From contig JARUPZ010000025.1 of NCBI GenBank assembly GCA_031213475.1, forward strand, positions 8,764,592 to 8,828,591: a DNA stretch of 64,000 nt, given 5' to 3'. Each line of letters opens with the position of its first letter. Within the stretch, counting starts at the first letter, position 1. Shown piece by piece: positions 789 through 61,565 of this stretch. The notes below the pieces were generated by a model, which ran no database searches, was not told where the DNA came from, and was given only the letters and a program-made list of their open reading frames with translations. The position numbers and the translations under genes are program-made. This DNA comes from Nereocystis luetkeana. Lineage: Eukaryota > Sar > Phaeophyceae > Laminariales > Laminariaceae.

Positions 789-915
789 TGCTAGTTACGT
801 ACCAGGTACGTATTTGGTTCCGATTACCATATTCTTCAGTACGTACGTGAAGTAGTGCTAGGCGGTTGCCCAGATGAATACATACCAGTACGAGTGTGTG
901 TGTGTGTTCTTCGCA

Positions 916-1012
916 TTAACCCTTTTAGAACCGCAGTCCCGTTTTGAGGACAAACCAGTCAAATTTCAAGTAGTTTGTCCCCAAAACGGGACTGCGGTTC
1001 TAAAGGGGTTAA
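916..1012. mobile_element. Family B MITE, complete with TTAA on both sides
   Basis: This copy begins TTAACCCTTTTAGAACCGCA and ends with the near-complement, GGTTCTAAAGGGGTTAA. The arms pair over about 36 bases around a short AT-rich loop. TTAA flanks plus CCCTTT ends are what is known for piggyBac-superfamily elements, so I infer a piggyBac-derived MITE; no transposase is present in the window. Confidence 0.85.
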
Positions 1013-1017
1013 ACCGT

Positions 1018-1065
1018 TCTTCCTACCCGTCGACATCCAGCACAACCAGTGTCCGTGCCGATTTT
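1018..1065 (+). repeat. Family K short conserved repeat, copy 1
   Basis: It carries CCCGTCGACATCCAGCACAA followed by CAGTGTCCGTGCCGA. Related stretches lie at 6327-6375 (+) and 19515-19556 (-). This copy starts a few bases after a family B element. Function unknown. Confidence 0.6.
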
Positions 1066-1194
1066 TCAACCCTATTATAGAAGAGATACAACGAGGGATG
1101 TATTTACGAGCATGTATTTTTTTTCTACTTACTTTCAGAACGCGGTCGCAAGGCAACACACAACACACCCCGCTCGGACCAACTACCAGGCCGA

Positions 1195-1370
1195 CTTTCT
1201 AGAAGGCGGGGAGAGAAAAAATGCCGAGCGAAGCGATTGCGGAAAATCTCGACGATACGCAGTCTTCCCAAAAGACGCAATTTTCGGTGGGGGTGCGCCT
1301 CCCTTAAGGCCTGCCTCTTCTCGACGAAGTCGTCTCTGAAACTCGTCTCAGGGCGTGTGATATGCGGCAA
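1195..1370 (+). mobile_element. Family I MITE, degenerate copy
   Basis: The interior (AATGCCGAGCGA near the left, CCTTAAGGCCTGC and AAACTCGTCTCAGGG near the right) matches the copies at 51540-51744 and 54462-54672. The terminal repeats are eroded. Confidence 0.5.
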
Positions 1371-1419
1371 CTGGTAGCCAATATGTCTACAGCAGTAAAT
1401 ACGTCGTACTAATAGAAAG

Positions 1420-1515
1420 TTTTTTAGAACCGCACAGTTAGTTGCGTTGTGGGGTAAAACCAGTCAAATTCTTAGTAGTTTGTCCCGAAAACGGGACTGC
1501 GGTCCTGTAAGGGTT
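1420..1515. mobile_element. Family B MITE, diverged left arm
   Basis: The right arm (AAAACGGGACTGCGGTCC) is well kept; the left arm has several changes (CCGCACAGTTAGTTGCG), so the hairpin is weaker than in other copies. Confidence 0.7.
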
Positions 1516-1790
1516 GGCATTACAATTAATTACTCAAATACTACCGACGTAGATGTCGAGGGTTCGATTCCGTCTGGAGCTTTTACTCCAAGCACCATTA
1601 TTAGACGAGAGTCGGCGAGGGAAGAAATTACTGAACCTTTCTCGCGACAAAAATGCAAGACGCGTACAGACCGTAGTTGGGGGGGGGGGGGGGGGGGGGG
1701 GCACTCACGGAGGGGGAAAAGAGCCTACTATGTGTGAGACCCGGATTTCACTCTATTCGGCCCCGGATCGAGTACGGCTATAGTAGTAGG
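1509..1790 (+). mobile_element. SINE-1-type body on a different tRNA-like head
   Basis: The body shares GGCGAGGGAAGAAAT, CTCGCGACAAAAATG and AGCCTACTATGTGTGAGAC with SINE-1. The head differs and carries a B-box-like GGGTTCGATTCCG. A run of about 22 G interrupts the body at 1679-1700. This suggests a SINE subfamily that swapped heads. Confidence 0.55.
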
Positions 1791-2404: not shown

Positions 2405-2697
2405 CCCGAGGAAATACCTGGAAATTCCCAGGCAGGCGTACGTAGATAGGGGGCGGGGGCGGGGGGCGTACTCATTCGTTGCTTCCCTTACAAGTACCTG
2501 GTAGTCATTTATTTGGCTAAAGTGCGTCATCCCTTCTTTCTCGAGTTTTCGGCACAGCTGTGAGTCGGGTGACTGTAAGTCGGAGGATAATACTTGGCTA
2601 GTTTTGGTTAGTTATGGCAAATAATTGCGTGGATGATTCACGGATTGTCTGTGCCTGCTTGACGCCTTTGTGGCTCGATGGCCCGTGTGTTATTACT
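2405..2697. other. No gene seen
   Basis: It holds a G-rich patch at 2448-2468 and one TACCTGGTA at about 2495. No coding frame or other repeat was recognised. Confidence 0.5.
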
Positions 2698-3047: not shown

Positions 3048-3480
3048 GACATTTTTCACTGGTGTACCTGGTAGCTGACAGTACCAACTACCGGCAAGCC
3101 AGCCATCAAGAGTTGGCTTGCTTCGCCATCCAACTAAAAAGTGGTCGTAAAATTCAGCCCACTCACAGCCACAGCGCTGCAGCAGTCAGTAGTTTTTGGA
3201 GTACGTATGTGACCTCAGCCAGCCGCCAACACCCGTTGAAACCCGGCCATTACAAAATGGCGATCGGACAAATTCGTTTGAAAAACCCCAACGGCCGTGC
3301 CAAGGAGGCCGCCTCTCATGAACACATCATTTATTTCCCCCACACCTTACTCGTATAGGAAGATAGGAAGGGATGTTTCATCCCCAACCCTTCCCCCTGA
3401 CCAATTCTATATCTTCTGTCGCCTAACCGCGCAAGGCGCAGTATCGCAGCAGTGTACCACGTATAAATTTACCTGCTGGG

Positions 3481-3610: not shown

Positions 3611-4064
3611 CTACAGACAGTAGGTACCTGGTATCCGGTATCCGGTGTCCGGTATCCAGGTACCGCATGTCACGTAAGACAACACGCCGCCTTCGACGAA
3701 CTTCGAAGCTGATTTTCTCGACAACTGTGAAGGTGCAGACACCCAACAAGGAGTCTATGGAAGTATCTCGTCGAGGGTCAACGCCGCCATTTAGGTCATG
3801 TGCCCCCCCCCCCCCCCGGGTTGGGAAAGACTCGGGCATGGGAAAATCGGAGGGGTGCCATCTTGCGTATTTATTTTGCGGACAATATGGGTATGGTCTC
3901 CTGCGTATTGGCAACAAAACATGGATATAAACAGTTTGTACCTCATGTGCACACAAATAGTTCTCAGTGTACTGTAGGTAGTCGATATAGGTTCGTACGG
4001 CGTTCGTACGGTGGTACGTTAACATCAACATGCCGTGTTCAAAGACAACATCAAGCACCACGTT

Positions 4065-7127: not shown

Positions 7128-7314
7128 CTACAGCAGCAAGCTGCGCAGCTACTCACTGCACCGCACTCGTATTATACACATCTGTGTATGCTTCACGTTT
7201 GGTATGAATATGAAATCAAATCATGCAACGTCTGTATTTTACCAGGTATCTCATTCCGGTAATTGCCAGCCAGGAAATATTTGACTAGGAATTAGTGTAA
7301 AATAAAACACTTAC

Positions 7315-8419: not shown

Positions 8420-9126
8420 TTAGTTGTTGATAGGCCTGCCCTCAATGATTGCCCCTCCCCATGGCCCACGCTATAGCTGCGATCTCGCCCGGCTCCCTAT
8501 CGACAGGGTGTTGACGTTCGTGCGTTTCGAGTACCGCCACTACTACTGCTGCTGCTCGTTGTTGCTGCTGCTGCTGCTGCTGCTGTTGTGGGGCCTCACA
8601 ATGAAGAAACGTACTGACTGGTAGGTAGCCAGGGGACGCTTTTTTCTGCTGCAAATTTTGAATTTTTGGACGAGTGAGCAATCGAGTGTACACGCGTATA
8701 CACACACAGCAACCAGGAGCAGCATCTATTTTTTTGTAACCTTTTTTCGCCGCTGTCGTGCTTCATGTTTTCCATAGAACCTGGAACCACATACAACGTA
8801 CGTACACATTAGATCCTCCGCTATGTACTTGGTGTTAGTAGAGATGAGTTATCAACCATCGTTATTGTTGTTGGATACCAGGTACAACAGCAGTACCGGG
8901 TACCGGGTTTGTCATATGATATCACAGGATCATTTCTGTTGGTGGGTATCTTGTGTACCCTGTGTGTACTGCAGAGCTGCTGCAGCAGAAGTGTACACAC
9001 TGATAATATAACTGCTGTTGCTGTACCTGGTACATTTTTTTTTAGAGGCAAATCAAAAGAAGCATCTCAAACAAGAGGCTGGGGCAGCAGTAGCACAGCA
9101 GTGTATTAATAGTAGTAATAGCACAT

Positions 9127-9300: not shown

Positions 9301-9494
9301 TTATACTACCTGGTATACACGTACTATTTGTTGTACTCCGAGTACAAACGACGACCATGGCCTAAAAGGCACAGCACAAGTTTTTCGGATTTTTTTTAAT
9401 AAGCCTACACATTGAACAGCTGGAACCACACTGAGGTCACAGACGACACATCGATTTCGTGTTTACGTACGTACTGCTTGGTGTGCTACCCTTT

Positions 9495-9808
9495 ACGCGG
9501 GTACTCGCGAGTATTATACCCGGCTTGCCAGTACCCGTTACACAGGTATAAAAAAAAACGTCATACTTGCCGAGTATTTGGGTCCCGGGTACCCTTTCCT
9601 TTGGTTTGCCCTGGAATCCCCGGAGATGGAAACTGACCATAGCCTAAATCACGTCCCCTTGGTATTAATACTACTCGTAGTATTGCGTACATTGTACGGG
9701 AAACTACTATTAATATTAATACATACCTGGTATATTAATAATAGTTCCAAATAATGATGATAATAATACCGGTATCTCATCACATACATACATACATACA
9801 TACATACA

Positions 9809-10140: not shown

Positions 10141-11650
10141 ACTCATGGATGAAGGAAGATGTAAGGTCCGTTTTCGGGAAGATATCATACGAGATTTGTG
10201 CGTTCAAATAAGGATCGTTTTGATATTAATTGAATACCCAAACGATTACAATATTTACGGACATTTTGAAAAATACGATGCTAGCATATACCAGGTATAT
10301 ACCACCGTGTGTACCCGTATACCACAGGGTACATACAACACGGTACCCAACATGGTGCCCATCGGTCTTATACTATGCCGGTGCCTCGGCTAAAATAGTA
10401 GACTCATCTTCGTTGTCGTCAGCCATAGCACTACTAAAAACATGAAAAAAAAGGGCAACATCTCAATCTGATGTTAATACGATTCTTTAAAAATAATTCG
10501 TAGGGACAGGGTTAGGAGAGTGAGGAAATATATCACCATAGACCCGCCGCTCGCCGCAGGCGAATTCTTTAAGAAAAAATGCAGCTTTTATACGAGACCT
10601 CTGGAGTTTTTGTACACATGACATATATATGTGCGTGCGTACGCGTGCACCAATCTAACCCGCGTGTGTTTGTATAGTTCAGACCATGCATTTGGGGGCT
10701 CCTTTGAGGTTTTGCGCTGTTGCGCCAGCGCAACGTTTCCAACGCGTAGAACAAGCGCCCCGGCGGGCTGTAAGGAGCCAGCCCTGTTTCAGACTACTCG
10801 TGGTTTAGAGTCCACCACTCTGTCGGGCAGTGTATAAGAACTTGTTGTGTTTTAATACCCGTAATCTGTTAATACCCAAACGGTTCTCAAAATTCCGGAC
10901 AGAGAGTCATACCTATACAAACGTCTACCGTCCAATTTAAACAATTATTTCATATCCGGATATACGGTATTGACAAGGCGAAGCACACCTACACCCCATG
11001 TAAGATGAATCCCCGCACCGATTTCGCCAAAAAAACGGGGTGGTGATAAAAATGAGTTTCGAGGAAATTTTCAAATAATTTCCGATCTCACACAGCTGAG
11101 TGAGGTCTCCTTTTAAGTCAACTTTTACAAAAAAAAACGAGCCCGGGTGGGTGGGGTTGGACAGACAAATCTCGTCGAGATCTGATTGATGTCGATCGAC
11201 GGATGGATGTGCGTGCACCTCTCGGTGTTTCAAAAAGTATCTCTCCTCCCCGTTTTGTCGAGAAAATCGGCTTGAAGACTCGCCCGAGGGGTCGGGTTGT
11301 CTCTAAAATATTGCACATACATCGTACCTGGTACAATGATATAATATGTACCAGGTATCCTATATACACGTGGTATATACCTGGTACCTGGTACCTGGTA
11401 TTTATATACGTACGTCGTGTGATCTTCAACGAAATAAGGATTTTTAAGTTCTAAATATACCCCGCGTCTCGGGTTTATTCTGTACCTTGTACACCGCATA
11501 CCTACCTGGTATTATGAGTTAACTATGGAGATACCACAAGATAGAGATATTCGAACGTACGTATTTGCACTATCTGTAAGATGATACTTACGAACACCAG
11601 TCGACCTCATCAATGCCGCCATCACTATTAAAATAAAACACGACGCACAC
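10140..11650. other. No gene seen; triple TACCTGGTA
   Basis: AT-rich sequence with scattered TACCWGGTA, including three overlapping copies at 11379-11400. A possible family I right-end fragment lies at 11235-11305 (TTTTGTCGAGAAAATCGGCT). No coding frame is convincing. Confidence 0.5.
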
Positions 11651-15451: not shown

Positions 15452-16240
15452 TGCGATAAAAGATAACACACCCCCCTCGCGATAATTTGTAAGGTGAGTT
15501 TCTCTTGACCATGGAAGGAGGTGCAACAAAAAAGCGGCGAGAGATTTATGCGCCCCGGTATTATTGTCGTCGAGGCCTTTCCAACGCCCCCCCCTTCTGG
15601 TTGTGTTCCCCCCCCCCCACTCTACCCCCCCCTATTTTATACCAGGTATAGGTTGGGTTGGCGTCGGTTGGAAACGACACTGTAAAACATGCCGCTCACT
15701 ACGTGAGCTAGACAACCAGGGTACCGTCTTCTTTTTTTTTTTTTGGCGGTCGCCCGCAGCTGGTCGTCGAGTTAGATCATTTGTGCGAGGTAAATGACCT
15801 TTACTCCGTACAAGGGAATTGATCGTATCACGTAGTGTTCAAGGTAAGGCACCCAAGAGGCAGTTACACAGTACTCCCATTGCAGTCTCTGAAAATGCCT
15901 GCACCGGAAATTAAATTAACTCATTGAAGCTGCCATCCATATGCAAGTCCGCCTCACAAGCGGTTCTTAGTATTGTAGGATGCAGCTCACCCTCCATGCA
16001 ACTCGCCAGACACCTCACGGCGCTTCGCGCTTGATGCGAGCAATGTCTGCCTGGTCGGTGAAAATCCGACATGCTCCATCCCGGCATTGTAGGGATGCGA
16101 GGATCTATGATCAGACGACTACGGCCATGCATGATATCGAGTACATCTCTCCTATCGAGTACACCCCCCCCCCCCTCTTGTTTTGGAGAAAACCGGCTCG
16201 GAAACTCGTCCCAGGGGGTGTGTTATCTCATCACCCTAGT
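15452..16240. mobile_element. Family I MITE split by a family C insertion
   Basis: The left end (GATAAAAGATAACACACCCC) and the right end (GGGTGTGTTATCTCATCACC) are inverted repeats. Inner parts AAGGAGGTGCAAC and CGGAAACTCGTCCCAGGG match the intact copy at 51540-51744. The middle is occupied by the family C copy at 15640-16172. Confidence 0.65.
15640..16172 (-). mobile_element. Family C element, long form, with TACCAGGTA scar
   Basis: On the minus strand this is nearly the whole long form seen at 48640-49400, including the CGGTACCCTGGTTGTC segment and the GACGCCAACCCAACC terminus. Close to that terminus it reads TTTTATACCAGGTATAGG, where the other copy has TTTTATATAGG: an extra CCAGGTA. The opposite end runs into a C tract (16164-16175). 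Confidence 0.85.
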
Positions 16241-16249: not shown

Positions 16250-16690
16250 TCATACGATTGGGCATGTCATATAGGTCGGATGCGTGCTGCCATAAGGGTA
16301 CGACACGTATGGTACCACTTTTTGGCCAAACTATTTATGACTTGACCGGTTTCCTTAAGCCAGTACCGTTGGCAAACCACTGTATATTTGCTACAGTATA
16401 TACCATACCTGGTAGTGTTTACTATATCGTTCGTGCTGTACCTAGGTCTTGAGAGTGCTCATCATGGTGTTGCACTTTATGATGGCATTTATCAAAATGA
16501 GCTGCTGCAGGCGTTGAGGTGTAGGGCTCCTCGAGTGAGACGCCACCAGAAGGCAAAGTAGGTGCTACCCCAAGAAGGTAAACGTTGTCGACGGATTTCG
16601 CGGAGGGTGTCCCGGGTCAAGCTCCAGCTTCGGAATCGCGAGGATGAAGGTAGCAGGAGCAGGAGGGGAGAGGAAGGAGGGGGTACTCGT
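16250..16690. other. No gene seen; possible family D fragment
   Basis: GTTGAGGTGTAGGGCTCCTC at about 16514-16533 resembles part of family D (compare about 32365-32385). One TACCTGGTA lies at 16407. Confidence 0.4.
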
Positions 16691-17980: not shown

Positions 17981-18429
17981 CGCGATGAAAATGACAATCT
18001 TGCAGCTAGCTGCCTTATTCTGTATTATAATTTAAGCAGCTTGCAAAGCTGAGTATCAACTGTTTAATCAGTCGAACTCACGGCTGAGGTATTTCATTAA
18101 ACAAAATGTTTACCAGGTACCTGGTATAAAATAACGAAATACGACGTCAGCTGTGAATTCTATAAAAAAATAATATCAGGTACCAGGTACGTAATTATTC
18201 CTGTTCGAGGATATTGGATATAATAGTGGGTGGATGGATCAAAAGTTTTTCGGGGGGGGGGGATCATTCTTATTTTTTATTATTCCTATTTTTATTTTAC
18301 TTTGGGGGGATGGATGGTGCCGGTCGTAGGGTTCACAGAAATACTAAGAGAACATTTTCAGAATACAACACAATCATGATAATGATCATGTAAAATGACT
18401 TGCCAGACGCCTTTTTGAATATGTTCAAG
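17981..18429. other. No gene seen
   Basis: AT-rich; holds a joined TACCAGGTACCTGGTA at 18111 and another TACCAGGTA at 18181. Confidence 0.5.
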
Positions 18430-18516: not shown

Positions 18517-18582
18517 CGTCTCAGGTCTGACATACATACCTGGTACGTGGCAAACAACATGTCAATCCGTATGCCATGGGTA

Positions 18583-18944: not shown

Positions 18945-19179
18945 TTAACATCGACGATGGCTGTTGTTGCGGATAGGTGTCAATCCTATTATGAATAATA
19001 TTTATTACCTGGTATTGTTCTACCGATGATGGCTGTGCAGCTTGATGAGTTGATCGCTCATAAACAGTCAAACCCCCCAAAAAGAAGAAAAAGCCGAGGC
19101 AGCAGTAAAAACAAAAAGGAAATATATACCTGGTATATATGTATGCTTACCTGGTAATATATACCAGTATATATATATT

Positions 19180-19556: not shown

Positions 19557-20116
19557 AACACACACACACTCTCTTCTCTGCCTACCTGTCCCTGCTCAAA
19601 TAAAACCTCTATTAATATCTACTTCATCAAGCATAGATAGTTAATACCAGGTATCATGCATCCCTCCCCGCCATCCTTATGCCGGTACCTTCCTCTCCTT
19701 CCGCGTTCCTTCGTTCGTGCAGCAGCTATCTGTCCTTGCGTACGTATGCTTTTCTTCTACACAGAGTAGTACTACAGCAGCAGTAGCCTTTCTGTTTGAT
19801 TTCAGAATTTAGTGATTTTTACTGTGTTTCTGTTCTCATTTTCTGGGTCTTCTTGCCTGCGTTTTGTTGTGTTCTCGTGCCCGGTACGGAACGGTGGCAT
19901 TTCGCTTGCTTGACCCATGAACTTGCGACTATGTTCGTGTTTGGTCTTGCTCTCTCTCACAGCCTGTGAGCACATTATTTTTTATCAGTATCTCTCTAGG
20001 ATAAGGAATCAGGATACGGGCACTGGGTGTACTGGTGAAGCTGGGTATGGCAAGGACGAAGACAACACACAGAAGAAGACGTTGATATCACGTACCAGGA
20101 ACAGTGTGTATAGTGA
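19557..20116. other. No gene seen
   Basis: A pyrimidine-rich patch (19660-19720) and one TACCAGGTA (19645). The 78-codon plus frame at 19917 lacks coding character. Confidence 0.45.
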
Positions 20117-20704: not shown

Positions 20705-21140
20705 AACAGCGACTCAGCCCCCCCCCCCCCCCCCCCTCCCCTAGGGATGCGGGGGTCTATGGTCATACGACTACGGGCATGCATGATAATGAGCCCCCCC
20801 CCCCCCCCCCCGCCTACGAGGCAGTTACATGGTGCCCCCACTGCTGTATCTGGGGTGGCCACGCCGGAGAATATATGAAAACTCATTGACGCTGCCTGTC
20901 ATCCACACTATATGCAAGTCCGCCTCACAAGCGATTCTTAGTCTTAGTACCCTGGTAGGATGCAGCTCACCCTTCATGCGACTCGTCGAACACCTCACGG
21001 CGCTTCGCGGTTGGTGCTATAATATAGCGATGTCTGCTTGGTCGGTGAAAACCCGACGTGCTCCGTCCCGGCATTGTCGGGATGCGAGGGTCTATGATCA
21101 TACGACTACGGCCATGCATGATGTCGAGTACACTCTCCCC
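20705..21140 (-). mobile_element. Family C, partial copy plus larger copy, with C tracts
   Basis: A small piece (20738-20783) lies between two C runs (20719-20736 and 20794-20810). A larger copy follows to 21140, again ending at GAGTACACTCTC and a C run. The larger copy includes the CCGGAGAATATATGAAAACT junction. Confidence 0.75.
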
Positions 21141-21848: not shown

Positions 21849-21964
21849 ATTACGGCGGGACCATTTCAAATAGGACCTAAGGTACAGACAAAAAACTACC
21901 TGGTACATGTTTCGCTATTTTCACTAACAACATTTGGTCCTATTTACTGCGGTCCCCCGTAATA
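21849..21964. mobile_element. Family A MITE with TACCTGGTA scar
   Basis: TTACGGCGGGACCATTTCAA to TGCGGTCCCCCGTAATAG. Inside, AAAAACTACCTGGTACATGT replaces the AAAACCTATATAG seen in the copy at 44236, i.e. seven extra bases at a TA (21897-21905). Confidence 0.85.
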
Positions 21965-22115: not shown

Positions 22116-23159
22116 GATTTCACACTGGCCCCTATGTGCGTAGTGGGAAGCCTGCACGACTAAACCGGCACTGCTGTGCTCGCGTCGCTCGGGCCGGGGA
22201 TATTAATCCCTGACCCCGGACATGTTGGTTTGTGATACCCAACATTGTTTTACAGAGTGCAAACGGGCATTTACTAAAATTCCGGGCAGAATGTGGGACA
22301 TGGTACCTGGTACCTGGTATGAAATAAAGCGAAAAGTAAAACATGCCGTCTTGCATCGAGCCCCAAGCTTTAACACCTCGGGACCAACGCCCCAACGGGT
22401 AGGGTGGACCGTAACTGGTCCGAGTCCGGCGGGAAGGCCTCATAGCCTTGGTTTTTGTTGGTGGGTGAGCAAACGCAAGTCCCACACTACCCGGGAGAGA
22501 TGACTCTCCCGGGTGGCTATCTCCACCGCACCTGCTCCTCTCGGGGGTCAGGTCGGGTCAACGTGCCCAACTGGGCTAAATTGACACACGACACGAACGT
22601 GGAAGTGTGGTGAGCTTAAGCTTTATTTTTACCAATCCGTCGGAGGATAAAAAAATAAATAAAAAAACAATCGGACAGAAAATGATCTATCTGTAGTATC
22701 TAGATCATGACACCGATTCCCACCTAGCTATCATTGATCCCGATGTTTCAAGGCAGATAGATTCCTCATCACCATCTGTATGATCTGTATGATCTGTATG
22801 ATCTGTATGATCCGTATGATCTAGCTGATGCATGTTGCCGGGGGGGGGGAGCCGTGGCCAGCATTTATTTATCTATTTTAAGCACATACATGCGTCCTGG
22901 ACTGGATCTGTACTATTATACATACCTGCTATCCATTTATCTCTATATATTTCTGAAACTATTATTATTATATGCTTGCCTTCCGACAATATAGCGCAGA
23001 TGATGCCGTTCCGATATAAACCGAATATCCTCCCGTAAATCAGAAGTATCTCTCATACGCTTCTCTGCCAGCCGTCTCCCAACTTCCATTCCCCACATCA
23101 TTTTATTTTGGCTACCGGTATAGTATATCCTATCCCCCATCAACGTTCCATCCCCAGGT
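22116..23159. other. No gene seen; GATCTGTAT minisatellite
   Basis: At 22770-22826 the 9-bp unit CTGTATGAT repeats about five times. Two joined TACCTGGTA occur at 22302. Frames at 22132-22503 overlap on both strands and look spurious. Confidence 0.5.
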
Positions 23160-23500: not shown

Positions 23501-23939
23501 TGAGGGTTTTATATGCATGTATGGTCTCATCGCGCGGGCAATTACAGCCCGTGCATGAGGAACGAGCAAGACAATGTATGAAGCTGCAGAAATCAACGGC
23601 CGGGCTATGCTATATGATACTGTATCGGTGCCACTTTGTTCCTTAATATAAGGCGAGTTTTTATTCGTTATTAATATGCGAAAGGTCCGTACATTTAGGT
23701 CGAAAATTGGTGCGATATGTCTATGCGAGGTGTGAGGTGTGCACAGGCTTCTGTTATTAAATTGTACACGTACTTGTACTACTCCTGTAGGAAGCGCAAA
23801 AAACTACCCGTACCAGGTTATGCAACATACTTCGTATACTTATACATACATACCAGGTACTATATAGACTCTAGACGTCGTAATTATTAGTAAAGGAGTG
23901 TTTATCCCTTCCATTAATTAATAGCATACCTGGTATATA
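23501..23939. other. No gene seen
   Basis: AT-rich; TACCAGGTA at 23851 and TACCTGGTA at 23927, the latter just beside a family B copy. Confidence 0.45.
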
Positions 23940-26240: not shown

Positions 26241-26714
26241 CTATTACGGGGAACCATAGATAGTTTTTTTTTTTTTTCTTTTTAATCATCACTACTTTCA
26301 CTTTCCAGCCTTACTCGTAGGAGGTTTTACCCTCCTCGACGAGCTTCTGGACAAGCCGTGGTCACAGGTGTCTACCCTTCTTCCCCCCGGCACGTCGTGC
26401 CTTTATTTTTTGTCGCGCATAGGGTTCAGCATTCCCACTGCTCGTCGATTCTCATCAAATATAGCTAACTCACGCTCTCGCGCTTTCCGCTAATCAATTT
26501 CTTTCAGGCAAGAAAAAGCCCTTACGAGCATGCACTCGGTGGGACTTGAACCCACGAAATTGATCTTGATAGGCACGCGGACCACCTACCAAGCCACCGG
26601 GGTTAATGGGGCCAAATATTGTTATTAAAATAGTAAAAAAAAAAGGAAACATATACCAGTAGGATTTTGTGTGTACCATAGATAGGTCCTATTTACTATA
26701 TGGCCCCCCGTAAT
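26241..26714. mobile_element. Family A MITE interrupted by SINE-2
   Basis: The left end TTACGGGGAACCATAGATAG (26241-26263) and the remainder GTTAATGGGGCCAAATATTG to TATGGCCCCCCGTAAT (26602-26714) are the two halves of one copy. The right half also holds TACCAGTA (26654-26661) where other copies have plain TA. Confidence 0.8.
26264..26602 (-). mobile_element. SINE-2, inverted copy inserted in a family A MITE
   Basis: It begins with the poly(T) image of a poly(A) tail (26266-26282) and ends with the head. The head's B box is intact (minus strand GGGTTCAAGTCCC) and the A-box region reads GGCTTGGTAGGTGG. It matches 12909-13221 along its length. Confidence 0.85.
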
Positions 26715-27124
26715 AATAAAAAGGAAACAAAAAGAGGGAAACCTCTATCCTATCTATGCCATGCACAATGCACGATTCACCCTCCATTAATTTAATAATA
26801 ATATGGAACGTTAATGATGCGGAATAGGAAATATACTATACCGGTAGCTAAAACGAAATGAGATGTGGGGGATGGAATTTGGGAAACGGCTGACAGAGAC
26901 GCGTTATGAGAGATACTACTACTACTACTATTGCTGATTTACGGAAAAGGATACTCGGTTTTTATATGGGAACAGCATCTACGCTATCTCTATATGATGT
27001 TGTCGGAAGGCAAAAAAAACGTACCTGGTACAATACGAATAATAATTTGTTTAATCAATCTCCATTCAAGTATTCTCCATTCAAATATGACGAGCACTCA
27101 CAGCAGTCGCACCCCTTTTTCCGT
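26715..27124. other. No gene seen
   Basis: AT-rich sequence with one TACCTGGTA at 27022 and a short (ACT)n at 26915-26930. Confidence 0.45.
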
Positions 27125-27220: not shown

Positions 27221-27886
27221 TCCACTTACTTGCTATATCATACTTCGAAGTATTGTTATTATTATATGCTTGCCATCCGACAATGTGTATACGTACGTAG
27301 TGCTGTTCTAAAAAAAACCAAGGAGCAGAAAAAGTAAAGAACTCTTCTTCTTCTCCAGACTGCAGAACAGAAGCGCGGCAGTATGGTATATATACCGTAT
27401 CATACGACAACTCAAAACCGATGTGACGCACATGACTTATTTATCCACAATCTACATCCCTCCATCTCATCCACCAAAAAAACAACCACTCTCCCCTCCT
27501 TCAGAGCAGCTATACCAGGTACCATACACGACGTATATGATATACCTGCATCACTATACATATATATTTCATTTTTTATATTCCAAAAAATTAATGATCT
27601 TAAAACATGTACCACGTCGTACCTGGTGTGTATTTTTGGTCGCGAGCAAATTATGTTGCTTGTTTTACTGGTTTGTGTAGGTGCAACTTTTCGGTTCACA
27701 TTATTATTATTATTTTTTATTTTTATCATGCCGGCGTGCGTGGCGTAAAAAATCTAACTGCCACGCAACGACGTACGTACGTAGCGAGTGGCGAGTAGTG
27801 AGTCGGAGACCACCACCGCGACATCACCACCTACCTACTACTCTGTTGGCCGCTCCGAGGCTCCGACATACCTGGTACCTGGTAGC
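27221..27886. other. No gene seen
   Basis: Overlapping frames on both strands at 27383-27798 lack domain character. Two joined TACCTGGTA end at about 27885, beside the next MITE. Confidence 0.45.
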
Positions 27887-28009
27887 TATTACGGGGGACC
27901 ATACATTAAATAGGGCCAAAAACATTGTGAGTAAAAAAAGCGAACTACCAGGTATATAGGTTTTTGTGTGTACCGTAGCTCCTATTTACTCGTATGGTCC
28001 CCCGTAATA
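27887..28009. mobile_element. Family A MITE with TACCAGGTA scar
   Basis: TATTACGGGGGACCATACAT to ATGGTCCCCCGTAATAC. At 27946-27954 GCGAACTACCAGGTATATAG stands where other copies have GCGAACTATATAG, a clean seven-base gain at TA. Confidence 0.9.
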
Positions 28010-31115: not shown

Positions 31116-31379
31116 CACTACTGTACCTGGTAGTGAAGACGGGGGTAGCCCACTGACCGCAGCTCGAGTTAGTGCATAGGCCTCCTTCAATGCTTTCCCC
31201 TTGGTTTTCTTGGCATTTCTGTGAATGTTTTCGAGTGATCAACGTTGAATGCCCGTTGAAGGATGGCAGACATGACCGTGAGCAGGAACAGACAGTGCGA
31301 GTGGATACCTCGTGCACGTTGTAAGCCGGCAGTAAACACAGAAGGGGACTATTCACAGACTTTGTGCGTAGCGTATTCC

Positions 31380-39304: not shown

Positions 39305-40311
39305 TAAACGCGCTCGCTTTCTCGCCTGAACCAAGGACAGCCGGGGCCGGAATCTGCGTTCTACGGCACTCTCATGTCGGCAAATACAGGATCTGTTCAT
39401 GCCAACAGATGATCTACAGATAGATCTTACAGATAGATCGCGATCTGTCGGATTTGTTGAGCCTACTCGTATGCCTTCCTCACCTCTCCCACGGGCACAG
39501 CCCCGGCTCCCGGACCCATCGCAGCGCCTCATGACAGAAAAATACAGACTCATGCACTATAGATGATCTACAGATAGATCGTACAGGTAGATCGTGATAT
39601 TATGTTGGCTGTGTTGAACCTATGCCTTCCTCACCTGTCCCAAAGGGCACAGCCCCGGCTCCCGAACACATCGCAGTATCTCATGACAGAGGAATATAGG
39701 GTATACTATTGTGGACGATCTACAGATAGATCGTATAGATAGATCGCGATCTGGCCCATGCGTCAGATGACCGTTCTCTAACCACGCCCACGTCTTCTCA
39801 CCTATGTTCCAAGGGCGGCCGTGTGGGATAGATGTGTACCTGGTACGGCCTTGCACGGCATCTCATGACGGCGAGATACAGGATACATTTAAATAACCAT
39901 GCGACAGTATGTACACGATCAACAGATAGACCCTCCTAGAGACAGATCCTACAGACAGATAGATGCTGCGGACAGGTCGTGGTCCGCCCGGTGGCCTCCC
40001 TCGCCCGCCCCAAGGGAAGCCCCGCCCCCGCACCCGTCACGGCACCTCATGGTGACAAAACACAGGGCACACTATCTATCACAGATGGTCTACCGACAGA
40101 CTCATCTAAAGATAGATCCTCCAGATAGATCGTGAACCCGCCCGATGGCCCGCCCTCTCACCTGTCCCAAAGACAGCCCTGTTCCCGCACCCGCCAGAGC
40201 ACCTCATGGCAGCAAAACACAGGGCACACTATCTATCACAGATGGTCTACAGACAGATACATCTACAGATAGATCCTCCCAGATAGATCCTCCAGATAGA
40301 TCCTCCCTCAC
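39305..40311 (-). repeat. Tandem array of decayed ankyrin exon ends plus GATC-rich introns
   Basis: Six units of about 150-170 bp lie downstream of the last ankyrin exon. On the minus strand each carries CATGAG, a 41-50-base remnant of the ankyrin repeat (for example V-L-W-R-V-R-E-Q-G-C-L-W-D at about 40203-40163), usually a GGTGAGG donor, and an intron piece with GATCTACAGATAGATC. Remnants sit near 40160-40205, 40010-40050, 39795-39865, 39645-39690, 39495-39535 and 39320-39370. Each would start in phase 0 and end in phase 2, so they cannot be spliced to one another without breaking the frame. Confidence 0.7.
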
Positions 40312-43476: not shown

Positions 43477-44235
43477 AAGGGTCAAATATGTGTGAGGCGT
43501 GGGCTACATGAGAGCAGTTAAGAATCTCCCATTCTGGCTGAGGCTGGCGGCTTGTTGTGATATGTCAACGCTGAACGCAGGGTTTAAAGGCTACCTATTA
43601 ATAGTATTGTATACTCATAGGTATAATTTAGAGTGGCGTGCTTGTTTAGCACAAATAAATGCTTGCCTGGTGTTACATACCTGGTACCAGGTAACATACC
43701 AGGTAGCTGTAAATTCTAAAAAATTGTGAAAATCAGCCTATGAGATTCTTAAACTACCAGAAAATTTGTCAACACCTGACGCGTGCTGCTGTAGCTTGCC
43801 TAAATCTTCTGAAGCATCTCACTTGCCACGACTTGAGGAGCTCCATACCCCACCCCAAAAATGGATCCGAGAACAAGGATGTGCAGTTCATGCACCCCAT
43901 CAACGGTCCCATAGCCCACGAGCACGGTGTTAACGAAGAATTCGGTCGGAACGAATTCGGTTGCGTTTCTTTCGGTCTGTCTCCTCTCAGTCTTGGAAAA
44001 AAAAAAAAAAACCCTGACCGATGGAACCTTCGTAACAGTCACCCCAACCCAATGGATACTTAGCAAAAAAAGGCGACCAAAATGCCACTTCTAATCTAAT
44101 TGTTCTTGGGGCTAGGTTAACCCGCAGGAAGGTCCCATGGGTTGAGGGTGGGGGGACGTTTTTATAAAGGACACAGACCACACGAGACCCAACCAAGTCG
44201 GTCCCAACCAAATTCTTCGCAGACTCCCCAATAAT
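43477..44235. other. No exon seen; family D-like stretch
   Basis: GAGGAGCTCCATACCCCACC and CCATAGCCCACGAGCACGG near 43838-43925 resemble the family D interior (compare 48860-48950). Joined TACCTGGTACCAGGTA plus TACCAGGTA lie at 43678-43706. Confidence 0.5.
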
Positions 44236-48639: not shown

Positions 48640-49400
48640 TCGATAGGAGAGATGTACTCGATCTCATGCATGGCCGCAGTCATATGACCATAGACCCTCG
48701 CATCCCTACAATGCCGGGACGGAGCATGTCGGGTTTTCACCGACCAGGCAGACATTGCTTGCACCAAGGGCGAAGCACCGTGAGGTGGGGAGCGAGTCGC
48801 ATGAAGGGTGAGCTGCATCGATGCGTTCTACGATAGAGGTTCAACCTAAACTTTCTGAGGCTCCTCACATAAGGAGCTCCATACCTCACCCGAAAACTGA
48901 CTTCAGCAAATATCACATTGCATCCCGATAAATGACCCCATGGCCCAAGCATACTGAAACGTCATTTTTCGGGTGAAGATTGGCATTCCGACGATTTTGG
49001 GTTAAGGAACCCCGTCATTCATAAAACAGTTTAGCGGAAATATGCCAACTCTATCGTAGAACGCGTCCATCCTACTTTGAGCCGCTTGTGAGGCGGACTT
49101 GCATATGGATGACAGTTTCAATGAGTTAATTTAATTTCCGGTGTAGGCACTTCCAGAGACAGCAATGGGAGTACTGTGTAACTGCCTCTTGGATGCCTTA
49201 CCTAGAACACTGCGTGATACGATCAATTCCCTTGTGCGGAGTAAAGGTCATTTACCTCGCACAAATGATCTACCTCGACAACCAGCTGTGGGCGACCGCC
49301 AAAAAAAAAAACGGTACCCTGGTTGTCTAGCTCACGTAGTGAGCGGCATGTTCTACAGTGTCGTTTCCAACCGACGCCAACCCAACCTATATAAAATAGG
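48640..49400 (+). mobile_element. Family C element, longest copy, split by family D
   Basis: Runs from TATATTCGATAGGAGAGATG through AAGGGTGAGCTGCATC, then (after the insertion) CATCCTACTTTGAGCCGC, GGTGTAGGCACTTCCAGAG, CTCGCACAAATGATCTACC, CGGTACCCTGGTTGTC, to AACCTATATAAAATAGG and another G tract. This is the reference long form and carries no scar at 49388-49400. Confidence 0.85.
48820..49067. mobile_element. Family D element with CATC target duplication
   Basis: The ends GATGCGTTCTACGATAGAG and (inverted) GACGCGTTCTACGATAGAG are terminal inverted repeats. CATC stands on both sides (48816-48819, 49068-49071), while uninterrupted family C copies have a single CATC. So a 4-bp duplication is visible. 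Confidence 0.8.
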
Positions 49401-49745
49401 GGGGGGGGAGGGGTATAGGCAGGGGTACAAGGGGGGGTAGGGAGGGGCAAGGTGGGGGTAGGGGAGGGGTAGGGATGGGTAGGGATGGATAGGGAGGGGT
49501 TTAGGGGGGGTAGGGAGGGGTATAGGGAGGGGTAGCGGGGGGCAATGTGGGGGTAGGACTGGATAGGCAGGAGTAGAGGGGATAGCGAAGGGTACGACGG
49601 GGGTAGGGGGGGGCAGGGAGGGGTATAAGGGGGTAGGGGGGGGATAGGGAGGGGTATAAGGGGGTACGGATGGGTCGAGGTGGGTAGGGAGGGGTTGGGA
49701 GGGGTATAGGGTGGGTACAGGGAGGGCATGGGGAGGTAGGTGTGT
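49400..49745. repeat. GGGTAGGG-type G-rich tract after family C
   Basis: Same style as 48206-48638, so the longest family C copy is framed by G-rich minisatellite on both sides. Confidence 0.9.
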
Positions 49746-51059
49746 GGGAGGAGCCATGCCATGCCATGCCACTACAGTGCGGTAGGGGCGGTACTTCGGG
49801 TCCAACATATCCTGGCCGTCGCGGGTCCCACCTCAAGCGAGAACGTGCCGAACATATTTTGCAATCCCACTAGTCTGGCATCGCCATTTGCAATCCCATC
49901 AGTTTGTGATATGCTTGGCCATCGGAGTTGGTCGTTGGATTGGGTGGCGTGCACGCGTTTTCTCAGCCCCGAGTGTCGGATGAGGTGTAGAGTTCCTACC
50001 GTCAGAGGCTTCGGAAACATTGGATGCACACAAGCCCCTACCGTGTAACGCCTCCGCTTTACTGCTCTATCCTTTCCTGTGGAGCATAGGGCTGAGTTCG
50101 TTGGACCTCGCAGCTACGGTTACTAGTAGGTATTATATGGGGTTGGCGGAGTACGTCACGAATCAGTTGAGTCTATAAGTCAACAACAAACATTTGTTTT
50201 TAGCCTGAATTATTATTATTTCTCTTGCCATCCGACAATATGCGGCATGATCTCCAACATTGATCACTCATAACTTTCCGGAAAGAAGAAAACCTCGGAA
50301 ACAAAAGGAAACCCATGCACCAAGTCTACCTCCCTTCTGTACCAATTTTCGGCTTGTCTACTCCATTCGCTGTCCTTGCTGAATTATTGTTTTCCTTAAA
50401 TACGTATCGGCCTGTCTAAAGAAAACGTATCGAGCCGCGAAGGCACCAGCTACATACACAGAGTAGAAAGAGGAGATGGTAGATACAAAGCCACAGAAAA
50501 CCCGAAGACTCGTATACCATACTATTATAGCTACGAGTAAGGCATGCGTTGGCCGGACTTCGAAGCGAGTTGTTAGATGGCTGACGAAGCGAGCCAGTTA
50601 TATCGTCCCCTAAACAAAACTCATTCGTTTCCGCGGGATTTCCTTGAAGCTTTAGGCGTTCGTATGGGTCGTCAACGTTGAAGCTCATGCGACACATTGT
50701 TGTCGGATGGCCACAAGTACTTCGCATAATATTAGTGTAATACCTGGTATTACATGACTCACAGCAATCACAGGTCGAACTCATCTATTGATAAATTTCA
50801 CTCCTACTTTTGTACGTACCAGGTATACTATTGACTTTCACGAATAGTCCACATGTATTTGAAAGAACACAACCAGTTCGAGCCACAGGCGCGCCAGACA
50901 GACTCAGAGACAAAAGAAAACCACGAAAATACCGCGCGCAACCCAGTGGCTGTAATACCAAACCAACTGATAATTATTCGGCGACTTACAGTCGTCCAAC
51001 TCACAGCCCTCGATACCTAAGCAACTATCTACTAGTCGGCGACTTACAGTCGGCCAACT
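49746..51059. other. No gene seen
   Basis: CGTTCGTATGGGTCGTCAACG and GCCATCCGACAATATGCGGC phrases recur at several other places (for example 24590, 25380, 31250). TACCTGGTA at about 50743, TACCAGGTA at 50818. Minus-strand frame 50416-50784 is not convincing. Confidence 0.5.
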
Positions 51060-54799: not shown

Positions 54800-55927
54800 T
54801 GTCGTACAGTATACGCATGGACGCCTAGATCGGGCGTCTCGCTCCGTCTCCCCTCCCCTCGAGTACCCGGCGAAGTTTGTAGCACAGAGATGCGTGCTGC
54901 GCGTTTCGTGTAACAACGTACACACACGTACGTACGCACCTGGTTTCTGAGATGTACGTACGAGTACGTAAACGTTTGTTTTGTCGCTCTGTGTGCGTCA
55001 GGCTATCTACTTTGAATACCTGGTATAAAACTACAGCAGTGCTGACTGTATGCCACCTGGTATTTGCATACCAGATCGGATGCACGCACGCACGCACGCA
55101 CGCTTCGTTGTTGAGAGCACCAGGCAAAACAAGGACGGTGCTGCTGTAGAAAGCCTAAAAGCCTAAACTGGGCGTCTTTCCCCGTCTCGCCCCCCAGGCC
55201 GCTATGTTTCACACGTACTGGTACCAGGTCGGATGCACACACACACGCGCGTTCGTTCGTTGATGAGGGGTGTATGGTATATATAGAAGCCGCTTTTTGC
55301 TCTTTTCTTCCTCCTCGCGTTGTGGCATGCGTTGCCGGGCAGTGCGAGAGCTGTGTGTGTATGCGCGCACCTACTTGTCGCTCTGCTGCTTGTCGGGGCG
55401 TTGTATAGTAGCCTAGGCGGCAGCAGGTCGGTGGTCTTCTCTTCTCGTGTACGAACCAGGTATATTCTTAGCTCGATCGCACCCAGCGGGCGAAACTCTG
55501 GTGCAGCAGCAGCCTTGCAGTACGTATCTGGTTTGTAGTGTGCACGCACCAGAAATTAACGTCAAAGCGTTGTTCAACTCAAGTCCAAAAAGGGACGATC
55601 GGAAAGAATTGTTGGATCCAGAATAAAATACAGGGAGGGGCATGATCTGGTATGTGCTGGCTGACTGTTTGTTTGGTGATATTCAACAGAATTAACGCAA
55701 CAACGGCGATGCTCGCCCGTATACACCACAACGCACCGATCCAGCAGCAACAACAGCGGCTAGTTGGGTGTTTGATGATGAACGAGAGCCTAGCCGTATC
55801 CGCCTGCCGCGTGGGAGCATGTATGCTTGAGGGCCGAGAACTAACAGCAACAACGCAGCAGCAGTGGAACTCGGAAGGTCGGAGAAAAACAGAAACGGCC
55901 GCCAGAAAAAAATACTAAAAACACCAA
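54800..55927. other. No gene seen
   Basis: A loosely duplicated phrase with ACCAGATCGGATGCACGCAC (about 55069) and ACCAGGTCGGATGCACACAC (about 55221). ACGC and CACA dinucleotide runs follow each. Confidence 0.5.
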
Positions 55928-56129: not shown

Positions 56130-57005
56130 GGTAAAAAAGCAAGCAGCAGCAGCATCAGCAGTAGCTCCAGTAGTAGAGCTGGTGGTGGTGGAGATGGTGG
56201 TGGAGGTGGAGATGGTGGTGGAGGTGGCGGTGGTGGTGGTGGTGGTAGTGTTGTTGTTGGTGCATCTCTGGTGTATCGCATATCGTGTGTATTTTTATCG
56301 TGACCTATATCGTACGACAGCTCGTCGGTGCAAGTTGTGAGCCCGGGCAAGCTGAGCCTGCCGCTGCTTGCCGCTGCTGCTGCTGCAGCTGAAGCTGCTG
56401 TGGTAGTGCAGGTGGTGGTGCCGATGGTGCTTGTGGTGGTGCTGTTGTCACTACACTGGTGGTGTTGCTGGTGCTGCTGGTGGTGCTGCCGATATTGTAG
56501 TACCTGGGGTGTATCGCGTATCGCGTGTGTGTATCTTGTGAACCATGACCGACCACGTACGTAAAGTTCTTACCAGGTACAGCAGTAGTACAACCAAAAA
56601 GTAAGTGCGTACAAGGCGCTTCGTTCCCCGGGCGGCCTACGCCGCCCGCTACGCTCGCTCTGGAAGAAAAAGTACATCGAATTACGCGAAGCGGACAGAA
56701 GGTCGATGATTGAGCATATATTATATTTTTATTATTGTTGTAGTTGCAAATTGGCGACTTGATAATGCCAAGAAGAGTCACATGCCGTACGTACGTACCA
56801 GTACGTACGTACATACCCCAGGTGGGGTATTGATTTTCTTCTTTCGATATATGCTGTATGATATGTACCTGCTGGTATGTACGCACGAGAAAGCAGAGCA
56901 TGGCACACAGCACAGCAGCACCGCTAAAACAACATGAAACCGAAAATTTCGGAAAGAGAAAGAATCCCCGTCCCCTCTCATGTAATAAGTGTCTGCCCTG
57001 GAACA
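56130..57005. repeat. GGTGGT/CAGCAG-rich stretch, no gene seen
   Basis: GGTGGTGGAGGTGG at 56180-56260 and GCTGGTGCTGCTGG at 56440-56490. The 239-codon minus frame is low complexity and crosses unrelated sequence. TACCAGGTA at 56571. Confidence 0.6.
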
Positions 57006-57855: not shown

Positions 57856-57971
57856 TATTACGGGGGACCATATAGTTAATAGGAGCAAATATTGTGGGTA
57901 GAAATGGTTAAATATATAGGTTTTTATGTATAATACCACAGGTCCTCTATTAACTATGGCCCCCCGTAATA
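57856..57971. mobile_element. Family A MITE
   Basis: TTATTACGGGGGACCATATA to AACTATGGCCCCCCGTAATA; a few small insertions inside. Confidence 0.9.
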
Positions 57972-58689: not shown

Positions 58690-58985
58690 CCTCGGCCACA
58701 TCTTCACATTTGACGTCGTCCAGGTCACGGGTTCGAACCTCATTTCGAACGTTTCTTTTACAGAAACGCTTGCTGCGCGTGTACACCTACCTAAAAAACA
58801 CATCTCCCTGGTTCCCCAGGTAATGAAAGGGAGCGGGTAGGTCAGCGTACGGACGTATGTATACGGTTCTGACGCCCCAAAGATCCCGCCGTTTATAGGA
58901 GGGGAGAGTGTTATTAGGATTACCCTGGGCTTGGTAATCGATCGGTCTTTTACCCCTATAGCTCAGTAGGTAACACCTTCACACT
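58690..58985 (+). repeat. Family G composite, plus-strand copy
   Basis: Starts inside the tRNA-like part (TTTGACGTCGTCCAGGTCAC, GGGTTCGAACCTC), runs through CCTGGTTCCCCAGGTAATG, GTAGGTCAGCGTACGG, CGCCCCAAAGATCCCGCCG and GGGGAGAGTGTTATTAGG, and ends with the start of a new tRNA-like unit (CCCCTATAGCTCAGTAGGTA). Confidence 0.65.
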
Positions 58986-60004
58986 ACTACTGCTGCTGCA
59001 TTGTTTATGTTCCGAAGTTATTCGAGTAGGGTATAGAGCGCACCCACCCTCCCATTCTGAAATCGGAAATCGAACGGTATACAAAACCACAGAAATCCAG
59101 TAGACAGCAGTATAGTATACTCGTAGTAGTTGTTAAGAATCTCCTATTTTGGCAAAGAAAGGCTGTTGTAATGGCCGCGGTCTATTGTATAATGCCAGCG
59201 TTGAGCATAGATATCGAGATAGGCTCTTAAAATACTGTATTATTATAATACACCTATACCTGTGGTTGGGTTTAGAGTCACGTCCTCGCTGAGGACAAAC
59301 ACATGCTTAGAATTATTAATAGATGTAAATTCTGATATCATACCTGAAATTCTTAATTACCAAATTATTAGCGAATACCCTGGTACACGAGGCGCACTAT
59401 TGTATCTGTTGTTCTCACATTAACTCACAATACAATGCAGTCAGTGGTCGCAGGACAGGCTCCAATAACTCTGTAGTGGAAGAAATACCTCAAGTAAAAA
59501 CAGAGGCAAAAAACAAAAACAAGCATACGCACACTCCACCACTCACTGCGGACACCAGGGAAGCAAAAAGGAGACTATTAATAGCAGACGAAAAACCTAA
59601 AAAAGAAGATGAAGCGAAGCAAAAAAACAAAACAAAACAAAAACAGAAGCAGATAGCAAAACGCAAAAAAAAGGCAAAACGGACCATACTAACAAAGACA
59701 CAAAGAGGTACAAACGGGAGGGCAAGAAAAATGAAAAAAGGAAGGGACAAAGAAAAAGCGATAATCACGGGCGGGGGGGAAAGAAAATACGAAAAAGGCA
59801 GGCACTGGAGCATATACAGACACGCAAAGTTGCCCAGGTGGCACCCTGCTAGTTACTTGGGTCCCAAAGAAGGGAGTGCATCATGACGATGATGGCCAAA
59901 ACCAGGCTTCAGTCTGTTGGGCAGACCACCTCCCCCCCCCCCCCCCCCCCCATTCCCCCTCGTCCCCCTTTCGCCCCCCCCCTCTTCCCTGCCATTCTGC
60001 GCAC
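58986..60004. other. No gene seen; A-rich low-complexity frame
   Basis: The 136-codon plus frame at 59476-59886 is Lys/Gln-rich because the DNA is A-rich (AACAAAACAAAAACAG). A C run lies at 59933-59952. Confidence 0.5.
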
Positions 60005-60365
60005 TCGCGTTGGCGTCAACGGCTGTGGTCGTGGTTGCAGCTACCAGGGTATTCTATACCGTTCTGCCGATGCCTCCTTCTCATCTGTATGCCATTTCCG
60101 CATGAAGGCCTCCGCCCCTTCCTCGACCCGTCGGAACCATCTGCCGGCTTTCTGTGCTGCATCGCGCCACCCTTCGAGTTTGATGCCGAACTCCTTGAGG
60201 TCCTCCTCAAGGTACCTCACATCCAGTCCCGCTCCTGTCCTCCGGAGTAACCCTTACCCCCAACCATCTCCCCAAACATCACCCTCTTCGGCAGACGCTC
60301 CTCTCGCATGCGTGTCACAAAGCCCGCAAACAAGAGCCTACGTCTGCGTACCGTCGTCTAAGCGC
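60005..60365 (-). pseudogene. LINE (third type) C-terminal fragment
   Basis: On the minus strand R-R-R-R-L-L-F-A-G-F-V leads into RMREERLPKRVMFGEMVGGK, then G-Y-S-G-G-Q-E-R-D-W-M. After a frameshift, LEEDLKEFGIKLEGWRDAAQ, K-A-G-R-W-F-R-R-V-E-E-G and M-R-K-W-H follow. The order LPKR...GGQ...WRD.A...WR..V is what I know from the tail of RTE/CR1-like LINEs. The reverse transcriptase is absent. It differs from the other two LINE types in this window. Confidence 0.6.
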
Positions 60366-60421
60366 TTTAAGATTTTGTCCTGAGAAGCGCGCTAGCATAG
60401 GATAGAATTATATACTACTGT

Positions 60422-60541
60422 GTGCATGTATGTATGTATGTATGTATGTATGTATGTATGTATGTATGTATGTATGTATGTATGTATGTATGTATGTATG
60501 TATGTATGTATGTATGTATGTATGTATGTATGTATGTATGT
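60422..60541. repeat. (GTAT)n microsatellite, about 120 bp
   Basis: About 30 uninterrupted units. Confidence 0.97.
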
Positions 60542-60712
60542 ATTAATAGTAATAATAGCTGACTTCACGTCGACAGCTAGCTGATGAAAGGCTATTATAT
60601 TTTTGTGGGGCGGTAGTCCAGCCGAGACGCCAGATGCATGTGGGATCACGGTAGAGCCCCGCAGCAGGGTAGTACGATATGTCTTCCTTTATTTTGTGTG
60701 TGGAGACACGCC

Positions 60713-60800
60713 TATTACGTGGGACCAAAACCTGTACCAAGGGTATGTCCCTATTTTTACCAACAATATTTGGTCCAATTTACTATGGTCCCCCGTAATA
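60713..60800. mobile_element. Family A MITE with internal deletion
   Basis: TATTACGTGGGACCAAAACC jumps from the left end into the interior; the right half (AACAATATTTGGTCC to CCCCGTAATA) is normal. Confidence 0.8.
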
Positions 60801-61565
60801 GGTGGCTTGTGCGGCTTCTCCACACTCTCGGGTGCCAGGTCAGCAACAGCACGGAGATCTGATCTCAGCGTACCCCTTAAGGAGCCAGGATGGCTTCAAG
60901 GATTATGATGGTGATAATGAGGCCGTACAATATAGGGGGTAGGACCTGGTATCCATGTTATGCACATTATTTTATACCTGGTAATAAGAAACCCCATTTT
61001 TAATATACTTGAAATAGTGCAGGACACACCGCCCTGCCTCACACAAGAATGAAAACAATACATACAATCTTGCCCTGAACAAGAGATTCTTAGCTGAGTC
61101 TGGCCCAAAACAAGATATTCTTAAGTGGGTGACCCAACAGAACATAACATTTAGTGGGTCGACCCGAAACCAAGAGATTATCAGGTGGGTGTCGTATCGC
61201 GCGCTACTGTACAATATATCTATCTAAGCTGGCAGTCTTAGACACGCATATTATTACCACATGCATGTATACACCGAGTTGTATAATAGCATGGCGGCAA
61301 AAAATCATGGTCTTCGCACATGGACGTTTGCGCAAAATACCCATCACAAAAAAAAACATGCCCGACCCCCCCGCCCCCTCCCCGCCCCGTACCCACACTT
61401 CTGCCACCCCTCCACGAGCTGAACGTGGTGGTAGGACAGCAGTTACACATACAGTCAGTAGCGACCCTTCCCCATATTGTCGCGGCGAAGCTAGGGCTAC
61501 GCTTCTGCCTGCAGCAAATAACGCTAGAGAAAATTCCGACATTTTTGTTTTGACCAATCAGAAAA
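60801..61565. other. No gene seen
   Basis: Near 61078-61175 AACAAGAGATTCTTAGCTGA and AACAAGATATTCTTAAGTGG form a loose ~45-bp repeat. One TACCTGGTA at about 60976. Confidence 0.45.

Follow-up and report, generated by a model that had tools for sequence, protein, structure and literature searches.

The window analyzed here, 64,000 bases of the 465,085,209-base genome of Nereocystis luetkeana (G000:C25:8764592-8828591), contains by direct count exactly 49 copies of the palindromic word TACCWGGTA, which we consider a probable excision scar of a DNA transposon. They comprise 33 copies of the T form (TACCTGGTA) and 16 of the A form (TACCAGGTA), and extend from 800-808 to 60975-60983. The same two counts had been given in an earlier note on this DNA, and its chance expectation of about 0.5 agrees with the mean of 0.56 words in dinucleotide shuffles of the window (none of 100 shuffles reached 49); an order-3 Markov model predicts 0.83 words. 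When words of the form TA-5mer-TA in the window were ranked, CCTGG (33) and CCAGG (16) were followed by a next-best word with 6 occurrences. For CCWGG, the flank pair TA_TA accounted for 49 occurrences and the runner-up pair for 5, which defines a sharp 9-bp boundary.

Genome-wide enrichment had been set beforehand as a check, and we found 182,395 copies of TACCWGGTA versus 1,744 of the reversed word (~105-fold). In 20 other stretches of 10 kb (197,500 known bases) we counted 81 words, distributed over 19 of the 20, and CCWGG ranked first of the 336 strand-collapsed TA-5mer-TA words seen there. Together with the window these stretches form the 264-kb sample used below, which has 130 words in total.

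Most words are single, and those of the window form 38 clusters once starts no more than 30 bases apart are joined. As the earlier note had proposed, they lie mostly outside other repeats: for 111 of the 130, the flanks (60 bases on each side, E 1e-5) had no match elsewhere in the sample, and most words are not surrounded by a common longer repeat. An origin in a dispersed repeat or in a microsatellite with a 7-base unit is thus highly improbable, even though some copies occur within miniature inverted-repeat transposable elements (MITEs) and 9 of the 12 directly overlapping pairs (sharing a TA) in the sample are of one letter, as slippage would give. The other three pairs mix A and T, which is not plain slippage, although some of the one-letter pairs could be.

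Plain-TA paralogues, target preference and decay

When word-bearing stretches were aligned with similar DNA, a 7-base gap formed the largest class among the alignments spanning the word (48 of 142; 60 of the 142 were viewed, many derive from two scars within MITEs, at 21897 and 27946, and some gaps are unclean). The word was present in both aligned sequences in 20 of the 142. The cleanest empty/scar pair lies within the window, where the loci at 15640 and 49350 match at 98% over 57 bases. These plain-TA paralogues support the earlier proposal of a change from TA to TA-CCWGG-TA.

With tandem words excluded, the flanks A-TA-T, G-TA-C and A-C or G-T occurred at 2.3, 1.7 and 1.6 times background, respectively, and T-TA-A was depleted (0.22 times background). 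The target preference is a palindromic RTAY; TA is all that the two sides have in common, and the next base varies. The thinning of words between 31.2 and 50 kb, also proposed earlier, is present (4 words against 9.9 predicted by RTAY density), but the effect is weak (p = 0.03).

A second TA-associated family occurs in the same DNA. The TTAC MITE is ~105 bp long, has the terminal inverted repeat (TIR) TTACGGGGGRCCATAGTTAA and a TA duplication, and is represented in the sample by 13 two-ended copies, which gave 26 matches, one per strand. The 20-mer ACAYAAAAACCTACCWGGTA, which is the left half of this MITE ending in the scar, was found at 1,732 places in the genome by matching of these 20 bases (control 0); some scarred MITEs may be copies. 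Another word, TATTAATA, is also enriched, with 74 copies in the sample (counting both strands, 148 versus 16.5 expected), and is probably the TTAC MITE's own excision scar. A nested copy of it differs between strains (L068:3251 versus L069).

Decayed copies of the word also exist. One-mismatch neighbours of TACCWGGTA numbered 124 in the sample versus ~60 expected, which corresponds to roughly 5% mean divergence, and allowing up to one mismatch across the whole genome gave 367,383 words versus 66,255 for the reversed word, corresponding to about 7%; the excess in the window alone was smaller (25 versus 16.4). In the sample, transitions were in excess at 6 of the 8 fixed positions. The palindromic form and high frequency of the word, and the two inner C/G positions, which show no transition excess, are in favor of a protein-binding or regulatory palindrome under selection. 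However, the excess of neighbours, the transitions at the other positions, the 1,732 copies in one MITE-derived 20-mer and the existence of plain-TA paralogues make such a function very doubtful.

A MITE word also occurs in two contigs filed under bacterial metagenome-assembled genomes (MAGs), one of which was used for a comparison between strains. Filed as Saprospiraceae and Flavimaricola, L067 (JALZWC010000131.1) and L068 (JALZWD010000061.1), carry algal repeats that by eye adjoin bacterial-looking DNA, and L068 also matches this genome at 98% over 1.5 kb. The algal portion of L068 was identical to its orthologue G000:C4 at 3,667 of 3,714 bases (98.73%), and all three scars (3/3) were common to both. 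Nine gaps were listed, of which three (204, 103 and 64 bases) lie close to the ends and could be edge effects. Among the six short gaps, three were 6 nt long: two scar-like indels and one CAGCAG within a CAG repeat. In the first, this genome has an extra CTGGTA beside a scar, either a 4-nt scar or a tandem duplication. The second (CTATTATTAATAATAG in L068 versus CTATTAATAG) is not a simple tandem copy and fits the replacement of TA by TA-TTAA-TA, which is the presumed TTAC MITE scar. The strain check yielded shared scars and two scar-like indels, but no pair differing in the presence of TACCWGGTA itself.

These data also bear on germline-limited DNA, in which elements would be lost by programmed elimination and the scars would be the junctions. 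Although this could account for ~180,000 scars with no resident copy seen in 264 kb, the decayed copies and the shared scars indicate that scars are inherited. We know of no programmed elimination of such kind in brown algae and regard this explanation as very unlikely.

Size variants and a model of excision

Words of other lengths between two TAs form a size ladder. In the sample, observed/expected counts were 35/13.4 for CCAG (5 of the 35 sit in one array, 54708-54775), 130/2.9 for CCAGG, 9/0.8 for CCAGGG, 2/0.3 for CCAGGGG and 17/4.4 for CCGG, whereas the T counterparts CCTG (11/8.6) and CCTGGG (1/0.5) were both near background. Genome-wide, TACCAGGGTA occurred 11,422 times (reversed 409) versus 1,578 for TACCTGGGTA (reversed 362); the former hits include at least one regular array (C1:1305185-1308362), so that not every copy is a separate event. 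Except in the 5-nt form, the ladder is thus biased toward A, suggesting that the ends read 5'-CCAGG.

The scar site within the MITE gave a similar picture. CCWGG followed by V and then B was found at 142 places, and among the 100 listed, 98 were CCAGG and 2 CCTGG (by hand count 89 CCAGGGT, 6 CCAGGGG, 3 CCAGGAT and 2 CCTGGGT). Sixteen of the 142 were fetched; in 13 a scar of 6 or 7 nt preceded TA, and the other 3 were read as decayed scars. CCWGGTB was found at 50 places (37 A and 13 T, hand count). Of the 20 fetched, 19 run on as MITE sequence and are therefore read as decayed scars or variants, and one (L057) is an interrupted MITE. Longer scars are mostly CCAGG and rarely CCTGG, and the 5-nt scar is either A or T.

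We consider it likely that TACCWGGTA was left as a scar on excision of a cut-and-paste DNA transposon with 5'-CCAGG at both ends, which would insert at TA (preferably RTAY) and duplicate it. On excision each end would leave an overhang of about 5 nt. Annealing of the two 5'-CCAGG overhangs via CC:GG would place an A:A mismatch at the center, and joining of the ends followed by mismatch repair would give TA-CCAGG-TA or TA-CCTGG-TA. Such pairing would explain both the CCAGG bias of longer scars and the A or T of the 5-nt scar. Slipped or trimmed joining would produce CCAG, CCGG, CCAGGG and CCAGGGG, and scars would nest because the new TAs may again serve as targets. From the scars we infer, in addition to the transposon, its ~5-nt overhang and these repair steps, a chemistry like that of Tc1/mariner elements.

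One variant leaves the core of this explanation intact. An element beginning CCAGGGG... might keep one overhang of 4-7 nt while the other end is trimmed, and CCAG, CCAGG, CCAGGG and CCAGGGG are indeed a prefix series. However, this leaves unexplained the strong dominance of the 5-nt form and the excess of CCGG, and we view it as rather unlikely. More doubtful still is that the 7 bases are the inserted unit itself, a tiny palindrome placed at TA by a transposase or another enzyme (aberrant or end-only transposition) with no larger element at most sites. The differences between TA and TA-CCWGG-TA would look identical either way, and no resident element was found; but an A-biased size ladder is natural for variable joining of two ends and not for a fixed insert, and we know of no enzyme that inserts such a palindrome. 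The coordinates of the words, presumed variants and related features are given in Table 1.

Table 1. Copies of TACCWGGTA (putative excision scars) and related features in the window
Feature	Position	Strand	Basis
word TACCAGGTA	800..808		word count
word TACCTGGTA	2495..2503		word count
word TACCTGGTA	3065..3073		word count
word TACCTGGTA	3625..3633		word count
word TACCAGGTA	7240..7248		word count
word TACCAGGTA	8876..8884		word count
word TACCTGGTA	9024..9032		word count
word TACCTGGTA	9307..9315		word count
word TACCTGGTA	9724..9732		word count
word TACCAGGTA	10289..10297		word count
five-word cluster (11325, 11349, 11378, 11385, 11392), last three with common TAs	11325..11400		word count
word TACCTGGTA	11503..11511		word count
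word TACCAGGTA; paralogue 49301-49406 has plain TA	15640..15648		word count and alignment
word TACCTGGTA	16406..16414		word count
two words with common TA, one A and one T	18111..18126		word count
word TACCAGGTA	18181..18189		word count
word TACCTGGTA	18537..18545		word count
word TACCTGGTA	19006..19014		word count
two words (19127, 19148)	19127..19156		word count
word TACCAGGTA	19645..19653		word count
word within TTAC-type MITE	21897..21905		word count and alignment
two words with common TA	22304..22319		word count
word TACCAGGTA	23851..23859		word count
word TACCTGGTA	23927..23935		word count
word TACCTGGTA	27022..27030		word count
word TACCAGGTA	27513..27521		word count
two words with common TA	27869..27884		word count
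word within MITE 27887-28009	27946..27954		word count and alignment
two words with common TA	29582..29597		word count
word TACCTGGTA	29779..29787		word count
word TACCTGGTA	31124..31132		word count
word TACCTGGTA	39837..39845		word count
three words (43678 T and 43685 A with common TA; 43697 A)	43678..43705		word count
word TACCTGGTA	50741..50749		word count
word TACCAGGTA	50817..50825		word count
word TACCTGGTA	55017..55025		word count
word TACCAGGTA	56571..56579		word count
word TACCTGGTA	60975..60983		word count
6-nt variant, putative scar TACCCTGGTA	20948..20957		
6-nt variant, putative scar TACCCTGGTA	59376..59385		
6-nt variant, putative scar TACCAGGGTA	60042..60051		
4-nt variant, putative scar TACCAGTA, MITE-like context by eye	26654..26661		
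plain-TA paralogue (empty site) of the 15640 locus	49301..49406	-	alignment
TTAC MITE copies	2697-2812, 27887-28009, 31380-31485, 32411-32520, 51742-51851, 57856-57971, elsewhere		

Search for the source element

The check proposed earlier, for TA-flanked elements with inverted CCAGG or CCTGG ends and a transposase, came back empty. Within their limits, scans of the 264-kb sample identified no element end among TA-flanked inverted pairs that begin with CCAGG or CCTGG. Most of the TA-flanked insertions listed against empty paralogues were the TTAC MITE; a few were other repeats, and in no case were the ends CCAGG or CCTGG. Candidate places in the MITE numbered 192 (the 142 and 50 described above, with V-then-B or T-then-B as the next bases), and none of the 36 fetched held an intact copy. 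Profile searches gave 0 matches for PF13358 (the control matched in 3 of 14 genomes) and 0 for PF01359, the latter without a working positive control. Ten open reading frames (ORFs) of the window had no Pfam match at E 0.01, and viral contigs searched for one MITE word gave 0. Zero copies in 264 kb allows up to ~5,000 genome-wide by the rule of three, so that "absent" is only an upper bound.

Three candidates were rejected. The locus L010 has perfect inverted repeats starting CCAGG beside TA, but the same sequence continues beyond the supposed ends, as seen in the window copy and the left flank; L010:1-3100, L029 and window 4619-5866 represent an element with very long inverted repeats, and its word TACCAGGAAAAAACAAACTATGACTG has 248+261 copies genome-wide. 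Window 48882-53604, with CCTCACCCGAAA ends, is a short inverted match only and lacks element structure. In L057/L066 a MITE is broken after CCAGG, but the interrupting sequence is a 1.2-kb repeat that lacks inverted ends; a repeat of this kind at window 56597-57833 is 88% like the one in L066. The window also contains MITEs of the TTAACCCTTTTAGAACCGCAGTCCC type (~17884-17981 and 18583-18680, by eye), which are TTAA-flanked and look piggyBac-like, and a 248-bp insertion with inverted ends (48820-49067) that is missing from several paralogues. An ankyrin ORF has relatives that include, among the best 120 of 1,719, one from Scytosiphon promiscuus, the sole organism named there; together with ankyrin repeats of this type, this would fit a brown alga.

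Several observations weigh against the excision model. They include the failure to find an intact copy, an element end or a transposase, the lack of a TACCWGGTA presence/absence difference in the 98.73% orthologue and the inner C/G positions. When flanks were joined in silico, an empty-type paralogue was found for 10 of 140 scars versus 25 of 700 control TAs; 2 of the 10 had no TA at the junction and some were of low complexity, which makes this test weak by itself. CCTGGGG (2/0.2 in the sample) equals CCAGGGG, CCTGGG is ~4 times its reversed control genome-wide, and TACC(C/G)GGTA (12 versus 2.1 expected) was not predicted by the ladder. Letter biases are unexplained and opposite, with T 82 versus A 48 on the plus strand of the sample and A 66 versus T 34 at MITE sites (first 100 listed, hand count). 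Overhang and footprint sizes of known systems, given below, belong here too.

On balance, the excision-scar interpretation of the earlier note is largely right. This interpretation is supported by the enrichment, the TA-to-scar difference, RTAY, nesting and the A-biased ladder, but the proposed element with CCWGG ends, its transposase and its staggered cut with 5-base overhangs were not found, and "excises often" is a deduction. The source element would be extinct, rare, or removed nearly everywhere. It is possible, though we hold this only tentatively, that it was a "hit-and-run" transposon with an unusually long (~5-nt) self-annealing CCAGG stagger, its insertion and loss nearly balanced because a palindromic end makes excision repair very efficient; scars would then accumulate by the hundreds of thousands while hardly any resident copy remained.

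Excision scars are usually counted singly in assays. With ~180,000 in one genome, target choice, joining slips and mismatch-repair bias can be read directly, and a transposon can be dated from its absences. If no copies remain, this genome was shaped by an element that transposable element (TE) annotation would wholly miss. By a term search of its main text, a TE survey of Ectocarpus does not use the word "footprint" (PMC12477816). The exact word occurs in 217 PMC papers, of which the 20 listed are by title on other subjects, and listings on footprints, transposons and brown algae contained no report of this scar.

Comparison with known transposon systems

The central A/T of the Sleeping Beauty footprint derives from a mismatched overhang, and Mos1 mariner, like the element proposed here, targets TA. 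PIF/Harbinger elements duplicate 3 bp, whereas here the two sides share no more than TA. Ciliate TA-bounded internal eliminated sequences excise precisely to a single TA, whereas here a 7-base scar remains. The TTAA target and seamless excision of piggyBac do not fit either, as a scar is left and T-TA-A is depleted. The TTAC MITE of the same genome is also TA-targeting and has an enriched likely scar, but it is well represented by intact copies (13 in 264 kb), and none was seen for the CCAGG element.

Sleeping Beauty leaves TAC(A/T)GTA (PMC3432063), which resembles the word described here in the TA on both sides, the element's terminal bases and the central A/T. The earlier note's analogy thus holds for the form of the footprint, although CWG is 3 bp and CCWGG 5 bp, ~180,000 copies occur here in one genome, and the staggered cut was not found. 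In grasses, Stowaway/Osmar5 excision leaves TA flanks and short TIR fragments of several sizes, with losses and gains recurring at a single site (PMC1925063); that case concerns one intron and fragments of 1-4 bp, whereas here one 5-bp word dominates genome-wide.

Overhangs of Sleeping Beauty and mariner are 3 nt (PMC7827188), versus ~5 nt proposed here, and Tc1/mariner footprints are 2-4 bp (PMC7913693), a usual though not strictly defining feature, versus a dominant 5 bp. The TA target with duplication is seen here on scars (plain-TA paralogues, RTAY) and not on an element. Mos1 differs in its 3-nt overhang, and a Mos1-type domain search here gave 0 matches without a positive control; its 5' inverted terminal repeat starts CCAGG (CCAGGTGTACAAGTAGGG...; PMC3419177), equal to the ends proposed here. 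Known from its scars, and with no claim to membership, the system appears to work like a Tc1/mariner element.

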